Shown here one piece after another: positions 3,438-11,422 of a stretch of 45,337 nt of DNA. Position 1 is the first letter of the stretch; each line of letters opens with the position of its first letter. The translations under genes were made by a program, and so were the position numbers. The stretch is taken from the NCBI GenBank assembly GCA_002720975.1, contig PBIX01000061.1, positions 1 to 45,337 of the forward strand, read 5' to 3'. Origin of the DNA: Planctomycetota bacterium (GTDB lineage: Bacteria; Planctomycetota; UBA1135; GCA-002686595). The notes under the pieces were generated by a model. It saw nothing but the letters and a program-made list of their open reading frames with translations, made no database searches and had not been told where the DNA came from.

Positions 3438-5264
3438 CTAGACGGAACTCTGGACCTTCTTGCGCTCGCGTTTACGCTCGAGTTCGTTCAGGGTGCGCTT
3501 GCGCAGACGCAAGTTGCTGGGCGTGACCTCAAGCAGTTCATCATCCTCGATGTACTCGAGGCTCTCCTCCAAGCTCATGATGCGTGGCGGTGCAATCTTG
3601 GCGTTGTCGTCTCGACCTGAAGCACGCATGTTGGTCAGCTTCTTGGTGCGGCACACGTTGAGGGCCAGATCTTCGGCGCGGTTGTTCTCACCCACGATCA
3701 TGCCCTCGTAAACGGGGGTGCCGGGCGCCACGAAGAAGATGCCGCGATCCTGCAGCCCGTCGATGGCATAGGGGATGACGTCTCCACTGCGGTCGCCGAC
3801 CAGCACACCATTGGTGCGGCGTGGAATGGGGCCGCCATCGGGCTCCCAGCGATCGAACACGTGGGCCAGGATGGCCTCCCCCTTGCTCAAGGTCAGCAGA
3901 GCCGTGCGCGCGCCGATCAGTCCGCGAGAGGGAATCAGAAACTCGATCTTGGACAAGCTCCCCAGGGCGTCCATATGGGTCATCTCGCCGCGTCGGCGGC
4001 CGAGGTATTCGATCACCTTGCCAGCATTGTCAGCCGGGACCTCCACCGTAGCCCGTTCCATGGGCTCGCATGCCGTGCCGTCCACTTGTTTGATGATCAC
4101 GTGCGGCTTGCCAACGCTGAACTCAAACCCCTCGCGGCGCATGTTCTCGATGAGCACGGAGAGGTGCATGACCCCACGTCCCTTGACCTCGAAGGCTTCC
4201 GCGCTCGACGTCGCCACGAGCACTAGGGCCACGTCCCGAGCGGCAGCCTTCTCCAGTCGCGTCCAGATCTGGCGACTGGTGACGTAGCGCCCTTCCTTTC
4301 CGGCGAACGGAGAGTTGTTCACGTAGAACACCATCGACAGCGTGGGCTCGTCCATGGGAATGGCGGGCAGGGGTTCGATGCACTCGGCGGGGCACAACGT
4401 GTCGCCCACGCCGATGTTCTCGATCCCCGTCACCATGGCGATGTCACCCGCCTGCACTTCTTCGACGGGCACGCGCTTGAGGCCTTCGCAACGGAAGAGG
4501 TTCTTGACCGGAAGCACGGGGGCGTCATCCCGGTCGGGATGGCAGAGGGCGTAGCGCCCTTCGCGTTGTAGCACCCCACGCGCGACGCGTCCCACCGCGA
4601 TACGACCCAAGAAATCATCGTGATCAAGGGTCGAGGCCTGAAACTGAACTGGGCCAGTCGAGTCCATCTGGGGCGCAGGCACCGACTCAAGGATCAGATC
4701 GAAGAGGGACTGGAGGTTGTCGCTCGTCGTCTCCAAATCCCGGGTGACCCAGCCATCCCGCCCAGAACCGTAGATGACGGGAAAATCCAACTGGTGGTCG
4801 TTAGCTCCCAAGTCCACAAACAGATCAAAGACCTCTTCGAGCACCTCACCGGCGCGCGCATCGGGACGGTCGACTTTGTTGATCATCACCAGGGCGGGTA
4901 GCCCGTGCTCGAAGGCCTTGGAGAGCACGAAGCGCGTCTGGGGCATGGGTCCTTCGAAGGCGTCGACCAAAAGGAGCACGGCGTCGGCCATGGTCAGGGT
5001 GCGTTCCACCTGACCGCCAAAGTCGGCGTGGCCCGGGGTATCGACGATGTTGATCCGTGTTCCTGCGTACTCGATGGCCGTGTTCTTGGCCAGAATCGTG
5101 ATCCCGCGCTCCCTCTCTTGATCGTTGGAGTCCAAGGCTCGCTCTCGCACCTGCTGGTTCTCACGGAACGTCCCCACGAAGGCGAACATGCTGTCCACCA
5201 GGGTGGTCTTGCCATGGTCGACGTGTGCGACGATGGCAAGATTACGGAACTGCGTGGAGGGCAT
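3438..5264 (-). CDS. typA: Translational GTPase TypA/BipA
   Basis: The 608-residue product is a ribosome-binding GTPase of the EF-G/LepA family, linked in other bacteria to stress responses, cold growth and ribosome assembly. The P-loop AHVDHGKTT lies at residues 13-21. ERGITILAKN (switch I) and DTPGHADFGGQVER (G3) follow, then NKVDRPDA (G4). The C-terminal BipA-specific region is present (VGENNRAEDLALNVCRTKKL and SNLRLRKRTLNELERKR). Length matches the family (about 600). The start at 5264 gives MPSTQFRNLAIVAHVDHGKTT, placing the P-loop where TypA proteins have it. A longer in-frame extension to 5537 would overlap the divergent lipoprotein gene and looks non-coding. Confidence 0.97.
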   Translation of the reverse strand: MPSTQFRNLAIVAHVDHGKTTLVDSMFAFVGTFRENQQVRERALDSNDQERERGITILAKNTAIEYAGTRINIVDTPGHADFGGQVERTLTMADAVLLLVDAFEGPMPQTRFVLSKAFEHGLPALVMINKVDRPDARAGEVLEEVFDLFVDLGANDHQLDFPVIYGSGRDGWVTRDLETTSDNLQSLFDLILESVPAPQMDSTGPVQFQASTLDHDDFLGRIAVGRVARGVLQREGRYALCHPDRDDAPVLPVKNLFRCEGLKRVPVEEVQAGDIAMVTGIENIGVGDTLCPAECIEPLPAIPMDEPTLSMVFYVNNSPFAGKEGRYVTSRQIWTRLEKAAARDVALVLVATSSAEAFEVKGRGVMHLSVLIENMRREGFEFSVGKPHVIIKQVDGTACEPMERATVEVPADNAGKVIEYLGRRRGEMTHMDALGSLSKIEFLIPSRGLIGARTALLTLSKGEAILAHVFDRWEPDGGPIPRRTNGVLVGDRSGDVIPYAIDGLQDRGIFFVAPGTPVYEGMIVGENNRAEDLALNVCRTKKLTNMRASGRDDNAKIAPPRIMSLEESLEYIEDDELLEVTPSNLRLRKRTLNELERKRERKKVQSSV

Positions 5265-5430
5265 GGGAGGGGGCAAGTGGCGTTCGGGGTGGAGGGTCCC
5301 GGATTTCGAGGCAGAGAGTCTACGGGCGGAAGGGGCCCCGGTACTAGAGGCGGTGCCGTATCCTGGGGTCAGATTCTCATGAAGGGGCAGAGCGAAGCCC
5401 TTGGATTCCCATGCCCCGAAGCTGACACAC
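5265..5430. other. Divergent intergenic region between typA and the phosphodiesterase lipoprotein gene
   Basis: This region must hold both promoters. A minus-strand TAGACT upstream of typA and a plus-strand TATCCT at 5359-5364 are possible -10 elements. Neither has a good -35, so I do not call either as a promoter. Confidence 0.35.
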
Positions 5431-6969
5431 ATGAAAGGCCTCACCCCTAGAATTCGGCTCCTGGGCGCCTTGAGCTTCGGATTGTTCCTGTGGGGGTGCG
5501 CCGTGTCGCAGATCGCCAACCCAACGGAGTCCCGCACCTTTCACCCGGACTATTGGGATGGAGTGACTCGCACCCTGGCCAGGTCACCCCTGGGTAACGT
5601 GGCCGCCATCTCCGCCCACAACTGCTACACCGCGGAAATCAATCCTCCCGCCAGCCTCGCTGCCACCCTGCGGAAGATCCACGCCGCAATGGCTGCTGGC
5701 GCGGATCTGATTGAGCTCGACATCAAGAGCGAGGGCGGCGTTGTGTACGTGGACCATGACGACCAGGGGACCACCTGGGGCGCTCACTTGGAAGATGTGT
5801 TGGCCGATCCGGCCTTGCGAGCGGGGGATCAGATCCTCTTCATTGAGAGCAAGGAAACCCAGGCCGATCCCGCTTACGTCACCAAGGTTCTGACCCACCT
5901 GTCGGACAACGGCTATGGGCGCTTCGGAAGGCCCGTGGTGATTCGCTCCTTCAACAACATCCGCCAGAACCTGATATTGACGCGTGATGCCCTGCGCGAT
6001 CCGGCCTTTCGCTCGATGCGCCCCTGGGTCAAGCTGAACGAGCTGTTCTCCAAGAATCAGGTGGCCAGCCTAGCCACCTCCCAGCAGATGATTGCTCAGT
6101 CTCGCCAGGATGGCTTTCAGGGCGTCGAGTTCCACTATCAGGACTCCAACCTGTTCGGAATGCTCACCTTCGCTCGCAGCCTGGGATTGGGCATCAACGT
6201 CTGGACGATCCCCGTCTCCATGGGGGAAGTGTTCCTGGCCGGCCTACGCGAGGAGGTCGATGCGCTGACCGTGGACTATCCCGTGGACAAGGCCCGACAG
6301 GTCGTGGAGGACAAGAACCTGCTGGTCTACCTGAACGCGTGGCCCCGCGATGGAAGTCAGAACACCGTTTTCTGGAGGGATGGGGCTGGAGCATTGCATG
6401 AGGCTCCAACCAGTCACCCCGGCACACCGGACTACAGTCTTTGGGGCACGGGAAGAAGCCTCTTTGGTGGCGTGTTGGACTTGGACGCCAGCAACAAGGA
6501 GATCGTCACCTTCTACGATGCCGACAATATTCCGAGGCAAGGCTACTTCATCACGGCCGTCGTGGAGTTCGACGACCTTGCGCTCGCGGACGGGGAGACC
6601 TCCGCCATTCTGAGCAAGGCTGACAGCGGAGGATTCGCCCTCGAGTTGCACAACCCGATCGGCTCGGGCGGCACGGTCCTGCGCTTTGGCGTCTACGTGG
6701 GGGGCTACGTCTACGGGACCGTGCCCGCGTCCCTGCTCAACACCACGGACTCCTTTCTCCTGACAGGTGCCTATGACGGTGACGGAGGCGTCTGGCTCTG
6801 GGTGAACCACTCCAGCGACAATCTGACCAAGGACCAGGCCTCCGGCGGGGTCGGCTGGAACAGCTCGCCCGTGCTGCTGGGGGCCGATCCCCAGGGTGTC
6901 GGGGGCAGTCGCTTTCACTTCTCTGGCAAGGTGCAGCAGGCGCAGGTCCAGGCCTGGGGATCCCACTAG
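5431..6969 (+). CDS. Lipoprotein with GDPD/PLC-like phosphodiesterase domain and C-terminal LamG-like domain
   Basis: The 512-residue product has a lipoprotein signal with lipobox LWGC (Cys at residue 23), so it is probably membrane-anchored outside the cytoplasm. Residues about 45-290 look like a TIM-barrel phosphodiesterase of the glycerophosphodiester/PLC superfamily. Features are ISAHNCYTAE in place of the usual HRG..ENT, GADLIELDIKSEGG with the acidic pair, VYVDHDD, IESKETQ on a later strand, and the late NVWTI segment. Residues about 300-510 form a second all-beta region (RDGAGALHEA..., WVNHSSDN) resembling a LamG/concanavalin-like fold, which may bind carbohydrate. The ATG at 5431 is chosen over a TTG at 5401 because it starts directly at the signal peptide. 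The exact substrate is unknown. Confidence 0.8.
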   Translation: MKGLTPRIRLLGALSFGLFLWGCAVSQIANPTESRTFHPDYWDGVTRTLARSPLGNVAAISAHNCYTAEINPPASLAATLRKIHAAMAAGADLIELDIKSEGGVVYVDHDDQGTTWGAHLEDVLADPALRAGDQILFIESKETQADPAYVTKVLTHLSDNGYGRFGRPVVIRSFNNIRQNLILTRDALRDPAFRSMRPWVKLNELFSKNQVASLATSQQMIAQSRQDGFQGVEFHYQDSNLFGMLTFARSLGLGINVWTIPVSMGEVFLAGLREEVDALTVDYPVDKARQVVEDKNLLVYLNAWPRDGSQNTVFWRDGAGALHEAPTSHPGTPDYSLWGTGRSLFGGVLDLDASNKEIVTFYDADNIPRQGYFITAVVEFDDLALADGETSAILSKADSGGFALELHNPIGSGGTVLRFGVYVGGYVYGTVPASLLNTTDSFLLTGAYDGDGGVWLWVNHSSDNLTKDQASGGVGWNSSPVLLGADPQGVGGSRFHFSGKVQQAQVQAWGSH

Positions 6970-6981
6970 CCCAGCGCGTCG

Positions 6982-7791
6982 CTAGACGACCCTCTCCTGA
7001 ACCCGCTGGATGCGGTCGATGCGGTAGGTCTTGAGCAGCCCGCTCCTCTGGCATTCGGCTTCCAGGTAGCCGTGTCCCCCGCGCTCGAAGAGAAAGCGTG
7101 GGACAACGGGCAGGGTGGCTGGGGCACCCTTGCTTCCGTAGACCAGCTCAATTTCGTTCGCGTCCATGCGTGCCGCCTCCAGCTGGCGTACTCGGCGCGT
7201 TGGGGCGGGACTCTTCGGCCGATGTCCGTTGATCGTGACTGGTGCAAGGCCCAGGGCCAGGCATTCGTTGTAGCCATCGCCGTCCGTATCGAGTCGCTCA
7301 AGGCACTCCTCAAGGACCTTCCAACACCAGACCGCGTCAGCCAGCCCGCGCCGTTGTTGGCCCTCCTCCAGGTCCAGGTGCTTGCAGAGAGTCTCCAGGT
7401 CATGCCCTTCCACCTCGGGAAGATGGTGCTGGGCCAGGGCCCGAGTATCCAGGATGGGAGAGCCCGGTGGGGGGAGCTCCGCGCGAGCGTACTCGAAGGC
7501 CAGGGCCGTGGCAGCGTCTTCCGCATCATGGGTGGCCAGACGCTCCTCTCCGGCCCAAGCGCCAAAGGCCTCCAGGACTTCAGCCGCAAGAGGCGCCGCG
7601 CGAATGTGATCCTCGGTGATTCCGTGCCAGTCGCTGGCTTCGGGCTCGATGGGAACTGGAGGACAGATCAGGGAGTCAAAGGTGTCCTCGATCTCGCCTG
7701 AGATGACCTTGACGGCACCCAACTCCACCACGTGCGGTGCGCCCTGCCGGGCGACGGTCTGGACGCCCAGAGCAATCAGAGGTCGATCCAT
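6982..7791 (-). CDS. DnaQ-fold (degenerate exonuclease) domain fused to a WYL-like domain
   Basis: The 269-residue product has an N-terminal DEDD-exonuclease-like fold (about residues 5-160). Recognisable parts are VVELGAVKV, the DWHGITEDHI segment (residues 54-63), THDAEDAAT (D92, Exo II) and LADAVWCWKVL (D152, Exo III). The Exo I DxE motif is replaced by Gly9-Val-Gln11 and the Exo III histidine by arginine, so nuclease activity is unlikely. A spacer with the acidic turn DTDGDG follows. Residues about 200-269 match a WYL-domain pattern (IELVYGSKG, VPRFLFERGGHGYLEAEC, KTYRIDRI), a ligand-sensing, nucleic-acid-linked domain. The gene starts 13 bp after the kinase stop codon, so the two are probably one transcript. 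I infer a sensor or regulator; no direct evidence of function is visible. Confidence 0.75.
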   Translation of the reverse strand: MDRPLIALGVQTVARQGAPHVVELGAVKVISGEIEDTFDSLICPPVPIEPEASDWHGITEDHIRAAPLAAEVLEAFGAWAGEERLATHDAEDAATALAFEYARAELPPPGSPILDTRALAQHHLPEVEGHDLETLCKHLDLEEGQQRRGLADAVWCWKVLEECLERLDTDGDGYNECLALGLAPVTINGHRPKSPAPTRRVRQLEAARMDANEIELVYGSKGAPATLPVVPRFLFERGGHGYLEAECQRSGLLKTYRIDRIQRVQERVV

Positions 7792-7804: not shown

Positions 7805-9919
7805 CTAGGTCAACTCCTGAAACTCGGGCAGGCCACGCAGGACGTCCAGGTCCGAGTTCGCCCGTATCTCGCTTGCGATGTAGTAGCCGCGGTCTTGAGC
7901 CAGGTTCAGGGCCTCGATGGCAGCGGGTGGATCGCCCAGCAGGGCGTAGACGCAGGCCGAGTGGAAGGCCGTGGTCCCATCCCGGGGTGCCAGATCGCGG
8001 GCCGCATCGATGGCCTCGCGGGACGCATCGTCAGAGCCGCGCCGCGCCAGGAGCAGGGCCATGTGCGCCCGCGCGTCCATGTCGTCGGGTTCGTCGCGTA
8101 GGTGCTTGCGGGCCGCAGCGATGCCCTTGTCGGCGATCTCGAGGGCCTCCTCGTATTGGCCCAGACATTGCCGCACTCCGTAGAGGTGATCGTAGCTGCC
8201 GATGTGCGAGGGGCACAGGTCGATGGCCTTCTGCAACAGGGGTGCGGCACCCTCGAAGTTGCCCGCCCGTGACTTGATGGCTCCCAGGAGGCGGTGGCTG
8301 AGCCACTCCTTCTTGTCCATCTGGATGGCCAGGCGGTACATGCGCTCGGCTTCATCCAAACGACCCGAGAGGTGATAGGCGAAGCCTAGGACTGTGTGAG
8401 CAAGGGCGCACTTGGGATCCAAGGAGATGGCGCGCTTGGCTCGCTCTCTGGCCTCGTCCAGGAAGGTCGGATCTCCGTCCCAGGTCAGGAACTTGCGGAC
8501 CATGGCCTCGGCCAGCCCGGCGTGTGCCAGAGCACAGTAGCGATCCAACTCCAGGGCCTTGCGGAACTTTGCGCTCGCGGCGAGGAGGTGCTTGGTGGTT
8601 CCCTTTCGAAGGACGGCCATGCCCCGAGTCGTGGCGGCCAGGGCGGCCCGGGTCTTCTCGTTCTCCAGTGCGTCGGCGCGCAAGGGCGCTTCGGTCAGTC
8701 GCTTGCGTAGCACGCGCATGGAATTGCGCACCAGGCTCTCCTGGAGGGCCCACTCGCTGTCCTTGCTGGACTTTACCGTGTCACGTACGACTCGAACGGT
8801 CGCATCGGGACCGCTTGCATCCGTGCCTTCACTGGGGAAGTGAACGGCGAGCTCCAGGCGCCCGTCTTGTCCCTGAACGTCCAGGTGAGTGTCCACGACG
8901 TAGTCCACATCGGCTCCGTTCGAATGTTCCTCTTGCTCTCCCAGGACTACCGTCAACTCCTTGTTGCGGGACAGGGCCGAGGCCAGGTCCTTGCGGATGC
9001 TACCCGCCATGATCGCGCAGGCCTCCGCATCGCTCTGGGCGCAGGTGGTTGGCGACAGCCGCAGCGTTCCTTGCAGGCGCGTGTGCGTCCGGCTGCGCGT
9101 ACCAGCGAGGGTCTCGTTCACCCCGAGCAGGGCATTGTGCGCTTCACTTGCATCCGTGAACCGGTCGGCCGGATCTTTTGCGAGGCACTTGAGCAGGAAG
9201 GCCTCCAGAGGCTTGGGGAAGCCGTGTCGCACCTTGGTCGGTGGCTTGAGCTCGCCATCGAGAATGGCCATGCACACCTCGGGGAAGTTGTCCCCGGGGA
9301 AGGGTAGGGTGCCAGTGGTGATGTGGTAGAGCACCGCCCCCAGACTGAAGATATCTGACCGGAGATCGAGGTCCTCACCCCGGACCTGCTCGGGAGACAT
9401 GTACAAGACCGTCCCAACCAGCACGCCTTGCTGGGTGATGTTGGTCTCGTCTCGTGCTCTCGCGATTCCAAAATCGAGCAGCTTGAGTTTGCCGTTGCGC
9501 TGCAGGAGTACATTGCCGGGCTTGAGGTCGCGGTGCAGGATGCCAGCTTGGTGTACCAACTCCAGGGCGCTTGTCACTTGCACAGCGATGCGCAGGCACT
9601 CCTCGAAACCCAGCGTGCGTCCCTTGATGACCTTGTCGAGAGTCTCGCCCTCCAGGAACTCCATGGCGATAAACGAGGTGCCCTTGTCCTCCCCATACTC
9701 GTAGATGGTCGCGATGTGCTCATGGGCCAGAGAGGAGGCATGCTTGGCTTCCCGCTTGAAGCGGCGCTCAGCTTGGGGATCGATCTCGGCGTGGGCGCGT
9801 AGGATCTTGAGCGCCACGGGCCGACCCAGGTTCATATCCTCCGCCCGGTAGACCTCGCTCAATGCTCCCTCGCCAATGCGATCGGTCTCGGGGTCGAATT
9901 GGAAGTGGGCGAATTGCAT
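7805..9919 (-). CDS. Serine/threonine protein kinase with TolB-like and TPR regions
   Basis: The 704-residue product begins almost directly with a Hanks-type kinase domain: glycine loop RIGEGALSEV (residues 14-23), VALK with Lys38, catalytic HRDLKPGNVLL, DFG, and SPEQ in place of APE, up to about residue 280. A middle region (about 300-430), with AIMAGSIRKDLASALS and later VVDTHLDVQGQDGRLELAV, resembles the TolB-amino/FlgO-like domain often joined to kinases or adenylate cyclases with TPRs. The C-terminal half consists of TPR repeats (CALAHAGLAEAM, CALAHTVLGFAYHLSGRLDEAERMY and others). No transmembrane helix is seen, so it is probably cytosolic. The start at 9919 is preferred because a promoter-like element lies just upstream, between 9919 and the more distal in-frame start at 9997. 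Confidence 0.9.
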   Translation of the reverse strand: MQFAHFQFDPETDRIGEGALSEVYRAEDMNLGRPVALKILRAHAEIDPQAERRFKREAKHASSLAHEHIATIYEYGEDKGTSFIAMEFLEGETLDKVIKGRTLGFEECLRIAVQVTSALELVHQAGILHRDLKPGNVLLQRNGKLKLLDFGIARARDETNITQQGVLVGTVLYMSPEQVRGEDLDLRSDIFSLGAVLYHITTGTLPFPGDNFPEVCMAILDGELKPPTKVRHGFPKPLEAFLLKCLAKDPADRFTDASEAHNALLGVNETLAGTRSRTHTRLQGTLRLSPTTCAQSDAEACAIMAGSIRKDLASALSRNKELTVVLGEQEEHSNGADVDYVVDTHLDVQGQDGRLELAVHFPSEGTDASGPDATVRVVRDTVKSSKDSEWALQESLVRNSMRVLRKRLTEAPLRADALENEKTRAALAATTRGMAVLRKGTTKHLLAASAKFRKALELDRYCALAHAGLAEAMVRKFLTWDGDPTFLDEARERAKRAISLDPKCALAHTVLGFAYHLSGRLDEAERMYRLAIQMDKKEWLSHRLLGAIKSRAGNFEGAAPLLQKAIDLCPSHIGSYDHLYGVRQCLGQYEEALEIADKGIAAARKHLRDEPDDMDARAHMALLLARRGSDDASREAIDAARDLAPRDGTTAFHSACVYALLGDPPAAIEALNLAQDRGYYIASEIRANSDLDVLRGLPEFQELT

Positions 9920-9975
9920 GGCCAAGGGTGGGGGAGAGGATGTGCGATGCCCGAGGGCGGCACAACCTGCCACCG

Positions 9976-10004
9976 ATACTACCGGGTTGAGCGCCATCGG
10001 TTAA
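9976..10004 (-). promoter_or_regulatory. Putative promoter of the kinase/DnaQ-WYL pair
   Basis: Minus-strand TTAACC (10004-9999) and TAGTAT (9981-9976) are separated by 17 bases, a good sigma-70-like arrangement, with the -10 ending 56 bases before the ATG at 9919. Transcription from here would begin downstream of the alternative start at 9997, which supports the shorter kinase. Confidence 0.5.
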
Positions 10005-10091
10005 CGGAGCGGGTCGAGTGCGACGTCCTCAACCCACTTCAGGTTGCAGGGGGGGGGAGCGATTCTCGTCCTGAGCCTGTACCGTTCCCCC

Positions 10092-10853
10092 ATGGCAACC
10101 ACACCCGAGCCCCGGCCCATCAGTGGGGGAGTCTGTTTCGAGGAGTGGGATTTTGCCGCCCTGGGCCCCGAGCACGCACGGAGCATCGAGAGTAATGACC
10201 GCCGGCTCATGACTCGCAGGCGGTTATTGGCCCTCGGTAAGGATTTCCTTGCCCGGGCCAAGGGGGAGGGGGTCCCCCTCGACGCGCGCTCATCCCTGCA
10301 CCATCCCCACGCGTTCAACGGCAAGCAGGTCTCGCGTCTGTGGGTCTACCTGATGCGCCCCAAGGCGGAGAAGACAAGGCTACGGAAGGTGCTGGGCCGT
10401 GAGCTGGCCAAGGACCTGGACTCGGCTTATCGCAACGCGTACCTGTGCGTGGCCGTGGAGCACCAGCACCTTGAGGTGTCCCTTCGCATCCATGCGGACG
10501 CCTGGTATGACGGACAGAATCTCGTCAACCGCGTTGGCCGCGATGGGCTCGGTCCTTGGCTTGCCCTGCTCAATGAGCTGAGCGGTTTCCAACTGCGTCT
10601 GCATGACTGGCGTGGCGAGTGGCCCTGCGGAAATCTGACCGCTGATCAACTGACAGAGTTCCTGCGGCACTACACGCCCGGAGAGCACCAGCTTGTGGTG
10701 GATCGTCGTTGGCCTGTGCCGCCAGAGGGTGCGGCGCGAGAGGCGGCGCTGGGCGAGGAGGTACCGGGCATCCTCTTGGCGGAACTGGAGCGGCTCTTGC
10801 CGATGTATCGCTATGCCGCCTGGTCGCAGGAGAGTGATCACCTGTTCTCTTGA
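10092..10853 (+). CDS. Protein of unknown function, 253 aa
   Basis: I do not recognise this family. The product is soluble-looking, with no signal peptide or membrane segment, and many Arg, Glu and Trp residues. The N-terminal half has a basic helical stretch (RRLMTRRRLLALGKDFLARA). The middle has LCVAVEHQHLEVSLRIH and DAWYDGQNLVNR, and the C-terminus has LLAELERLLPMYRYAAWSQ. The ATG at 10092 is preferred over an upstream in-frame GTG at 10044 because the extension is coded by low-complexity G-rich DNA. It is divergent from the kinase gene and overlaps the next (frameshifted) gene by 4 bp if that gene uses TTG at 10850, so the two may work together. Confidence 0.65.
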   Translation: MATTPEPRPISGGVCFEEWDFAALGPEHARSIESNDRRLMTRRRLLALGKDFLARAKGEGVPLDARSSLHHPHAFNGKQVSRLWVYLMRPKAEKTRLRKVLGRELAKDLDSAYRNAYLCVAVEHQHLEVSLRIHADAWYDGQNLVNRVGRDGLGPWLALLNELSGFQLRLHDWRGEWPCGNLTADQLTEFLRHYTPGEHQLVVDRRWPVPPEGAAREAALGEEVPGILLAELERLLPMYRYAAWSQESDHLFS

Positions 10854-11261
10854 GTGCGGACGGTGGCACTGTGGAATCCACTCCCAGGCCAGGCTCAAGC
10901 GGTCGATCCATCCCGTCCTGCAACCTGTACTACCCGAATAAGAAGAATCTGTACGACGTGCTCACGTCTGAGGATTCCGCCGTGGGGTACGCCAAACTGC
11001 TGAGCACCTGGGATCCCGACTACACCCACCTCGCTTCGGTTGGTGTCAGCGTGCAGGGACACGTGGACGAGGTCCTCTCCAAGATCGCCCGTGCCGAGCA
11101 TTTTGGCCCGCAGGGGCAAGTTGGTGACCCGTTTCTCACCCTGCACCGATCCCGACCTCAAGGAACCGGGGCTGGAGCACTACTTCGGGAAGGACGCCAA
11201 GCGCCGCCTCTGGGAACTGGAGGCCCTCGGCCCCCTGATCGACGTGTACTCCATGCGCTGA
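10850..11261 (+). pseudogene. Frameshifted gene of unknown function
   Basis: Two adjacent frames join into one plausible protein. The first frame gives NLYYPNKKNLYDVLTSEDSA and continues to IARAEHFGPQG. Near the run ttttggccc (about 11100-11108) the coding character moves to the frame of 11259-11261, giving ARRGKLVTRFSPCTDPDLKE and then LEHYFGKDAKRRLWELEALG before TGA. Removing one T from TTTT would restore a single reading frame of about 136 codons. The cause could be a real inactivating mutation, a sequencing or assembly error, or programmed frameshifting. The TTG start at 10850 overlaps the upstream stop (TTGA); a later start is possible. I do not recognise the family. Confidence 0.6.
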
Positions 11262-11422
11262 AGGGCTTCGAACTGTGCCGACACTGGTCCAATTAGGGGG
11301 CTCAGAGGTTGCTCTTGGGAGCCGTGTCTTCAAGAATTACCGCGTCGTTCGCCAGTCGGGTCCCAGCCGGGCCCCCGTCTCCAGTTCCTTCTCCCAGGTC
11401 CCAGAAGCAAGGGCAGATCATC
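11262..11422 (+). other. Intergenic region upstream of the pnt operon
   Basis: The region precedes the three-gene transhydrogenase operon. An AAGGG sequence about 10 bases before the ATG at 11423 can act as ribosome binding site and supports that start. A weak TTGCTC ... AGAATT pair around 11310-11338 could be a promoter but is poor, so it is not called. Confidence 0.35.

Follow-up and report, generated by a model that had tools for sequence, protein, structure and literature searches.

The locus described here raises the question of why a bacterial gene would retain the fold of a 3′-5′ exonuclease together with a putative sensor domain, when the exonuclease appears unable to cut. It lies on contig PBIX01000061.1 of a Planctomycetota bacterium, of which the whole stretch of 45,337 nucleotides was analysed and is called the window here. 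The first-pass annotation, made from the sequence alone, had read the gene as an inactivated DnaQ-fold domain fused to a WYL-like domain, and had suggested nucleic-acid binding or signalling instead of cleavage.

A DnaQ-Fold Domain Is Fused to a WYL Domain

Both the DWHGITEDHI stretch and the KTYRIDRI ending singled out by that annotation are present in the 269-aa translation. In Pfam, RNase_T matched residues 18–158 of the window protein (E 2e-16, 61 bits vs. a curated cut-off of 24) and WYL matched residues 201–265 (E 8e-7, 29.4 bits vs. a curated cut-off of 21.8), and both families were likewise matched in 33/33 members of alignment A3. The full-length AlphaFold2 model, for which the window protein and 32 relatives were used as input, had a mean pLDDT of 91.2 and a pTM of 0.89, and the Foldseek comparison of the whole protein with the PDB returned PolC, epsilon, ExoX, and further DnaQ-fold exonucleases. 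The WYL half modeled alone (pLDDT 88, pTM 0.74) matched PafBC, BrxR, CapW, and DriD at E values of 5e-5 to 1e-3, several of its PDB matches being structures solved with ssDNA bound; PafBC was also found by a WYL-only sequence profile (E 2.7e-6). With both domains above their curated cut-offs, and with confident models that agree in matching DnaQ exonucleases for one half and WYL regulators for the other, the proposed fusion is confirmed. No other WYL match was found in the window genome, the assembly of which is 90% complete.

Table 1. Positions of the gene, its domains and key residues, and its neighbors in the window.
Feature	Position	Strand	Basis
Pseudo-exonuclease–WYL gene, 269 aa	6982..7791	-	ORF, Pfam RNase_T and WYL, AlphaFold
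DnaQ/RNase_T-fold domain, aa 1–167, dead by sequence	7291..7791	-	Pfam, AlphaFold model, Foldseek
WYL domain (Sm/SH3-like barrel), aa 199–266	6994..7197	-	Pfam, PafBC profile match, Foldseek
Exo I: Gly9-Val-Gln11 for Asp-x-Glu	7759..7767	-	Alignment
Exo II position: Ala93 for Asp	7513..7515	-	Alignment
Exo III position: Arg147 for His	7351..7353	-	Alignment
Exo III Asp152, sole catalytic residue retained	7336..7338	-	Alignment
Arg257 and Arg260 of KTYRIDRI, aligned with the PafBC arginine pair	7012..7023	-	Alignment to PafBC chain 6sj9
Directly upstream gene: Ser/Thr protein kinase containing a TPR region	7805..9997	-	Pfam; conserved upstream neighbor
typA/bipA translational GTPase, downstream	3438..5537	-	TIGR01394 E 7e-254; conserved neighbor
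Glycerophosphodiester phosphodiesterase-like gene, antisense between exonuclease–WYL and typA	5401..6969	+	Pfam GDPD

Four of the Five Catalytic Residues Are Lost

By alignment to relatives, the five DEDDh positions correspond to residues 9, 11, 93, 147, and 152, at which the window protein carries Gly, Gln, Ala, Arg, and Asp, respectively. The replacement of the Exo I DxE, the substitution of the Exo III His by Arg, now placed at residue 147, and the retention of Asp152 were all seen as previously described. Asp92, which had been taken for the catalytic Exo II residue, proved to be one residue off, aligning with the Phe of the family motif ‘HNAxFD’. Since the catalytic column is instead Ala93, the losses amount to four of five, one above the earlier count. 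Arg148, which stands beside the replaced His147, is invariant across the family. Two-metal catalysis by DEDDh enzymes needs the Exo I carboxylates, the Exo II Asp, and a general-base His, and because all of these are lost, it is expected to be abolished; judged by its residues, the protein should not cleave.

The changes specific to the genus of the window were then compared with general sequence conservation. Four of the five catalytic columns were changed vs. 6 of the 39 other exonuclease-half columns of ≥90% conservation (Fisher p 0.007), and those at conserved columns clustered on the catalytic motifs, at residues 9, 10, 11, 13, 87, 93, 147, and 149. In the WYL half, 1 of 17 columns of ≥90% conservation was changed, by L258I. 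Counted over the conserved columns of the exonuclease half, 9–10 deviated in the genus, vs. at most 6 in each intact alignment row. The motif loss is thus beyond chance, given the high profile scores, the full-length homologs found phylum-wide, and the concentration of the changes on catalytic positions.

The Loss Is Found in One Genus and a Second Lineage

The family was sampled with 89 DnaQ–WYL proteins from Planctomycetota; the window protein is 45–53% identical to its fused relatives over residues 1–265. The residues D, E, D, H, and D were intact in 84 of the 89, and the remaining five comprised the proteins of three species of the window genus, that of a genome from another genus (G022), and one truncated by a contig end. 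All three species examined in the window genus (G000, which is the window genome, G001, and G002) carry the identical G, Q, A, R, and D, and as three separate assemblies agree, an assembly error behind the residue loss is ruled out. The G022 protein has E, L, V, G, and R, with all five residues changed. This second dead copy (L022/L225, G022:C221:713-1525) has a strongly diverged exonuclease half and a fully conserved WYL half. Loss of the DxE as a general trait of the family is therefore ruled out by the alignment. Because 84 of the 89 relatives are intact DEDDh proteins, the window protein belongs to an exonuclease–WYL family, and its dead state is an innovation at the genus level.

In the maximum-likelihood tree of 88 rows, the stem of the genus was long (0.9) and its crown short (0–0.07), which suggests a period of change and then a return of constraint. 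The losses in the window genus and in G022 required two changes in the best tree, while a single change was allowed by 29% of bootstraps. Many relatives in the bacterial family of the window lack the gene altogether, and the non-planctomycete matches in a profile scan of genome contigs mainly covered the exonuclease half.

The Dead Protein Is Maintained Under Purifying Selection

The reading frames are intact in the three congeners, and at dS of 0.4–0.9 the pairwise dN/dS of the exonuclease half was 0.041–0.075 when fixed domain halves were used and 0.030–0.056 over aligned columns, with 0.01–0.35 obtained for intact genera over the same aligned columns. These values indicated that the dead exonuclease domain is under strong purifying selection, as low in dN/dS as the intact genera; thus the gene is not drifting to loss, and a pseudogene is ruled out. 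For G022, no sufficiently close relative was found for a dN/dS estimate. The possibility that homologs with an intact DxE would reduce the case to a point degeneration had been raised at the outset; such homologs do exist, but with the loss common to three species and a dN/dS of 0.03–0.075, the case goes beyond point degeneration.

The difference between exonuclease-half and WYL-half mean identity to intact relatives was the lowest in the two dead lineages among 29 rows, and the WYL halves of both lineages were conserved as much as any row. Constraint since the loss is therefore relatively heavier on the WYL half.

The Gene Lies Between a Ser/Thr Kinase Gene and typA

The coding stretches of the kinase and the exonuclease–WYL gene are separated by 16 bases, stop codon included, and the two are probably co-transcribed. 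In the bacterial family to which the window belongs, the order Ser/Thr kinase, exonuclease–WYL, and typA/bipA is conserved: the orthologous loci have the kinase upstream in the same orientation, and typA follows downstream, in most cases directly adjoining and often overlapping. Many close relatives have a gap to the kinase of only −1 to 20 bases. The dead copy of G022 likewise adjoins typA. The GDPD-like gene in between was found only in the window genus among the loci compared, and in two further families of the order, the loci that were examined lacked the three-gene arrangement. The true start of typA/bipA is probably near 5276, because the residues ahead of 97 lie outside the family match. 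The operon partners, a translation factor and a kinase of generic type, give no pointer to an output, and we know of no functional link between such a Ser/Thr kinase and TypA.

On the opposite strand of the window, a 269-aa protein without Pfam or NCBIfam match is encoded at 10044-10853 (+) and is found near the kinase in many relatives. The following 148-aa ORF at 10850-11296 (+) is what remains of the C-terminus of a membrane protein, the complete 623-aa form of which is encoded in the congener G002 (L031:3448-5316); positions 10880/10911 of the window join points about 1.5 kb apart in G002, by either a deletion or an assembly join.

Replicative Proofreading and Other Exonucleases

The protein was also considered as DNA polymerase III epsilon, the replicative proofreader, and this was rejected, as the catalytic residues are absent, and the C-terminus holds a WYL domain and no alpha-binding segment. 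No intact exonuclease of DnaQ or PolC type was found in the 90% complete window genome, in which the one other RNase_T match was weak and fell on a protein that is Orn-like by eye; many genomes of the family had no RNase_T protein over the cut-off. The window genome encodes a full-length DnaE, together with two further DnaE-like ORFs, one longer and one shorter. The DnaE N-terminus carries, by eye, a PHP-like HLHVHSEYS...DHGN motif, which could be a source of proofreading.

The WYL Half and the Proposed Function

The correspondence between PafB and window residues was derived from alignment to PafBC chain 6sj9. The tyrosine and arginines of PafB that match window residues are required for ssDNA binding (PMC11804915), and Y242, K254, R257, and R260 of the window protein are present in each of the three congeners. 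A single arginine of the WYL pair is absent in some intact relatives (e.g., G012, L102, L103). Ligands of WYL domains are not necessarily nucleic acids. The dead exonuclease half is strongly acidic (net charge −20 vs. a family mean of −16), which does not favor nucleic-acid binding by this half, so that binding more likely takes place in the WYL half.

Because the catalytic residues are lost while Y242, K254, R257, and R260 are kept, we consider it fairly probable that the protein, as a pseudo-exonuclease, has been repurposed to bind or sense single-stranded nucleic acid without cleaving it, for which we infer the binding, the ligand, and the output. Its ancestor would have been an intact DEDDh 3′-5′ exonuclease–WYL protein that was vertically inherited in Planctomycetota. 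On the stem of the genus, D9G, E11Q, D93A, and H147R destroyed the two-metal center, while strong purifying selection preserved the overall fold, the groove of the WYL domain, and the place in the operon downstream of the kinase. The conserved basic residues of the WYL barrel may grip a single strand, and the DnaQ fold, no longer catalytic, may act as a 3′-end cap or as a protein-interaction surface. The original reading as a dead nuclease with a WYL domain is borne out by the dead DnaQ fold and the genuine WYL domain, which are maintained under selection and include the arginine pair; the refuting case named there, homologs with an intact DxE, does occur, and the dead state is a property of the genus.

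The dead half could also be a structural or protein-interaction scaffold only, e.g., for the kinase or TypA, with nucleic acid uninvolved. The acidity of this half and the tight linkage to the kinase and typA noted above agree with such a role; however, the basic groove of the WYL domain is fully kept despite the lost exonuclease center, pointing to a ligand that is still bound, and a pure scaffold is therefore rather unlikely. Cleavage might persist as a residual or altered activity, if Asp89, Glu91, Asp92, and Asp152 formed a non-canonical metal site. Several acidic residues do adjoin the site of the lost Exo II Asp, and Asp152 survives, but the metal-holding carboxylates of Exo I have disappeared along with the Asp of Exo II and the general-base His, which is more than a shift of the site and makes this very improbable. 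That the gene is decaying and functionless now would fit its absence from many same-family relatives, by which it is dispensable, and the lack of catalytic residues in a second lineage, G022, but hardly the low dN/dS, with frames intact in three species at dS up to 0.9, and we give this scarcely any credence. A defense-associated sensor, like many WYL proteins and the DEDDh nucleases near CRISPR loci, is just as improbable: the PADLOC profiles for CRISPR-associated DEDDh, WYL, and PDC-S48 match separate halves and the WYL regulators CapW and BrxR are defense-linked, but the neighbors are housekeeping genes (typA, transhydrogenase, kinase), the gene is vertically inherited through the family, the PD-T4-6 matches of the kinase stem from its generic fold, among plasmid and phage records none spans 80% of the window protein, and no link to phage defense was found among neighboring genes or in those records.

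Beyond the non-cleaving binder or sensor itself, the kinase, the (pseudo)exonuclease–WYL protein, and TypA/BipA might form an undescribed signaling unit, a speculative and doubtful extension, in which the WYL protein would sense single-stranded ends under control of the kinase and adjust the ribosome-bound GTPase TypA, and which would have passed from cutting to purely sensing in the window genus and, perhaps separately, in G022.

Comparison With Known Systems

The N-terminal fold resembles the PolC exonuclease domain and epsilon (DnaQ), which are the best PDB matches by sequence and structure; unlike these, the window protein lacks four of the five catalytic residues and a polymerase part, and a WYL domain replaces the alpha-binding tail. 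With the ssDNA sensors PafBC and DriD it has the WYL barrel in common, including the arginine pair and the tyrosine of PafBC, whereas these proteins carry an HTH and activate transcription and the window protein has no HTH. A fusion of WYL with a 3′-5′ exoRNase was listed among the enzymatic partners of WYL by Makarova et al. (2014; PMC4012209), and a search of one paper collection on the WYL domain together with DnaQ turned up a single review. That fusion likewise joins a 3′-5′ exonuclease domain to WYL, but the window genus has lost the catalytic center and yet keeps the protein. The intact Planctomycetota orthologs (e.g., L005, L014) share the fold, the domain order, and the operon with kinase and typA, and retain all five DEDDh residues, of which the window protein has only Asp152. 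The active exonuclease–WYL architecture is thus known, while its retained dead version beside intact orthologs is new; to our knowledge, bacterial DEDD-fold pseudo-exonucleases kept under selection are hardly documented.

With intact relatives and two dead lineages, one of them the window genus, at hand, the conversion of a nuclease to a putative binder or sensor is directly testable, and as conservation of the WYL half has outlasted catalysis, these proteins offer a clean setting for the role of a WYL domain joined to an exonuclease. A works-like precedent is metazoan Maelstrom, whose DEDD-fold MAEL domain no longer has the catalytic residues and has turned into a binder of ssRNA (PMC4408791); it differs in being eukaryotic, in its zinc-bound ECHC motif, and in having no WYL domain, and is related to the window protein only via the DnaQ/DEDD fold.
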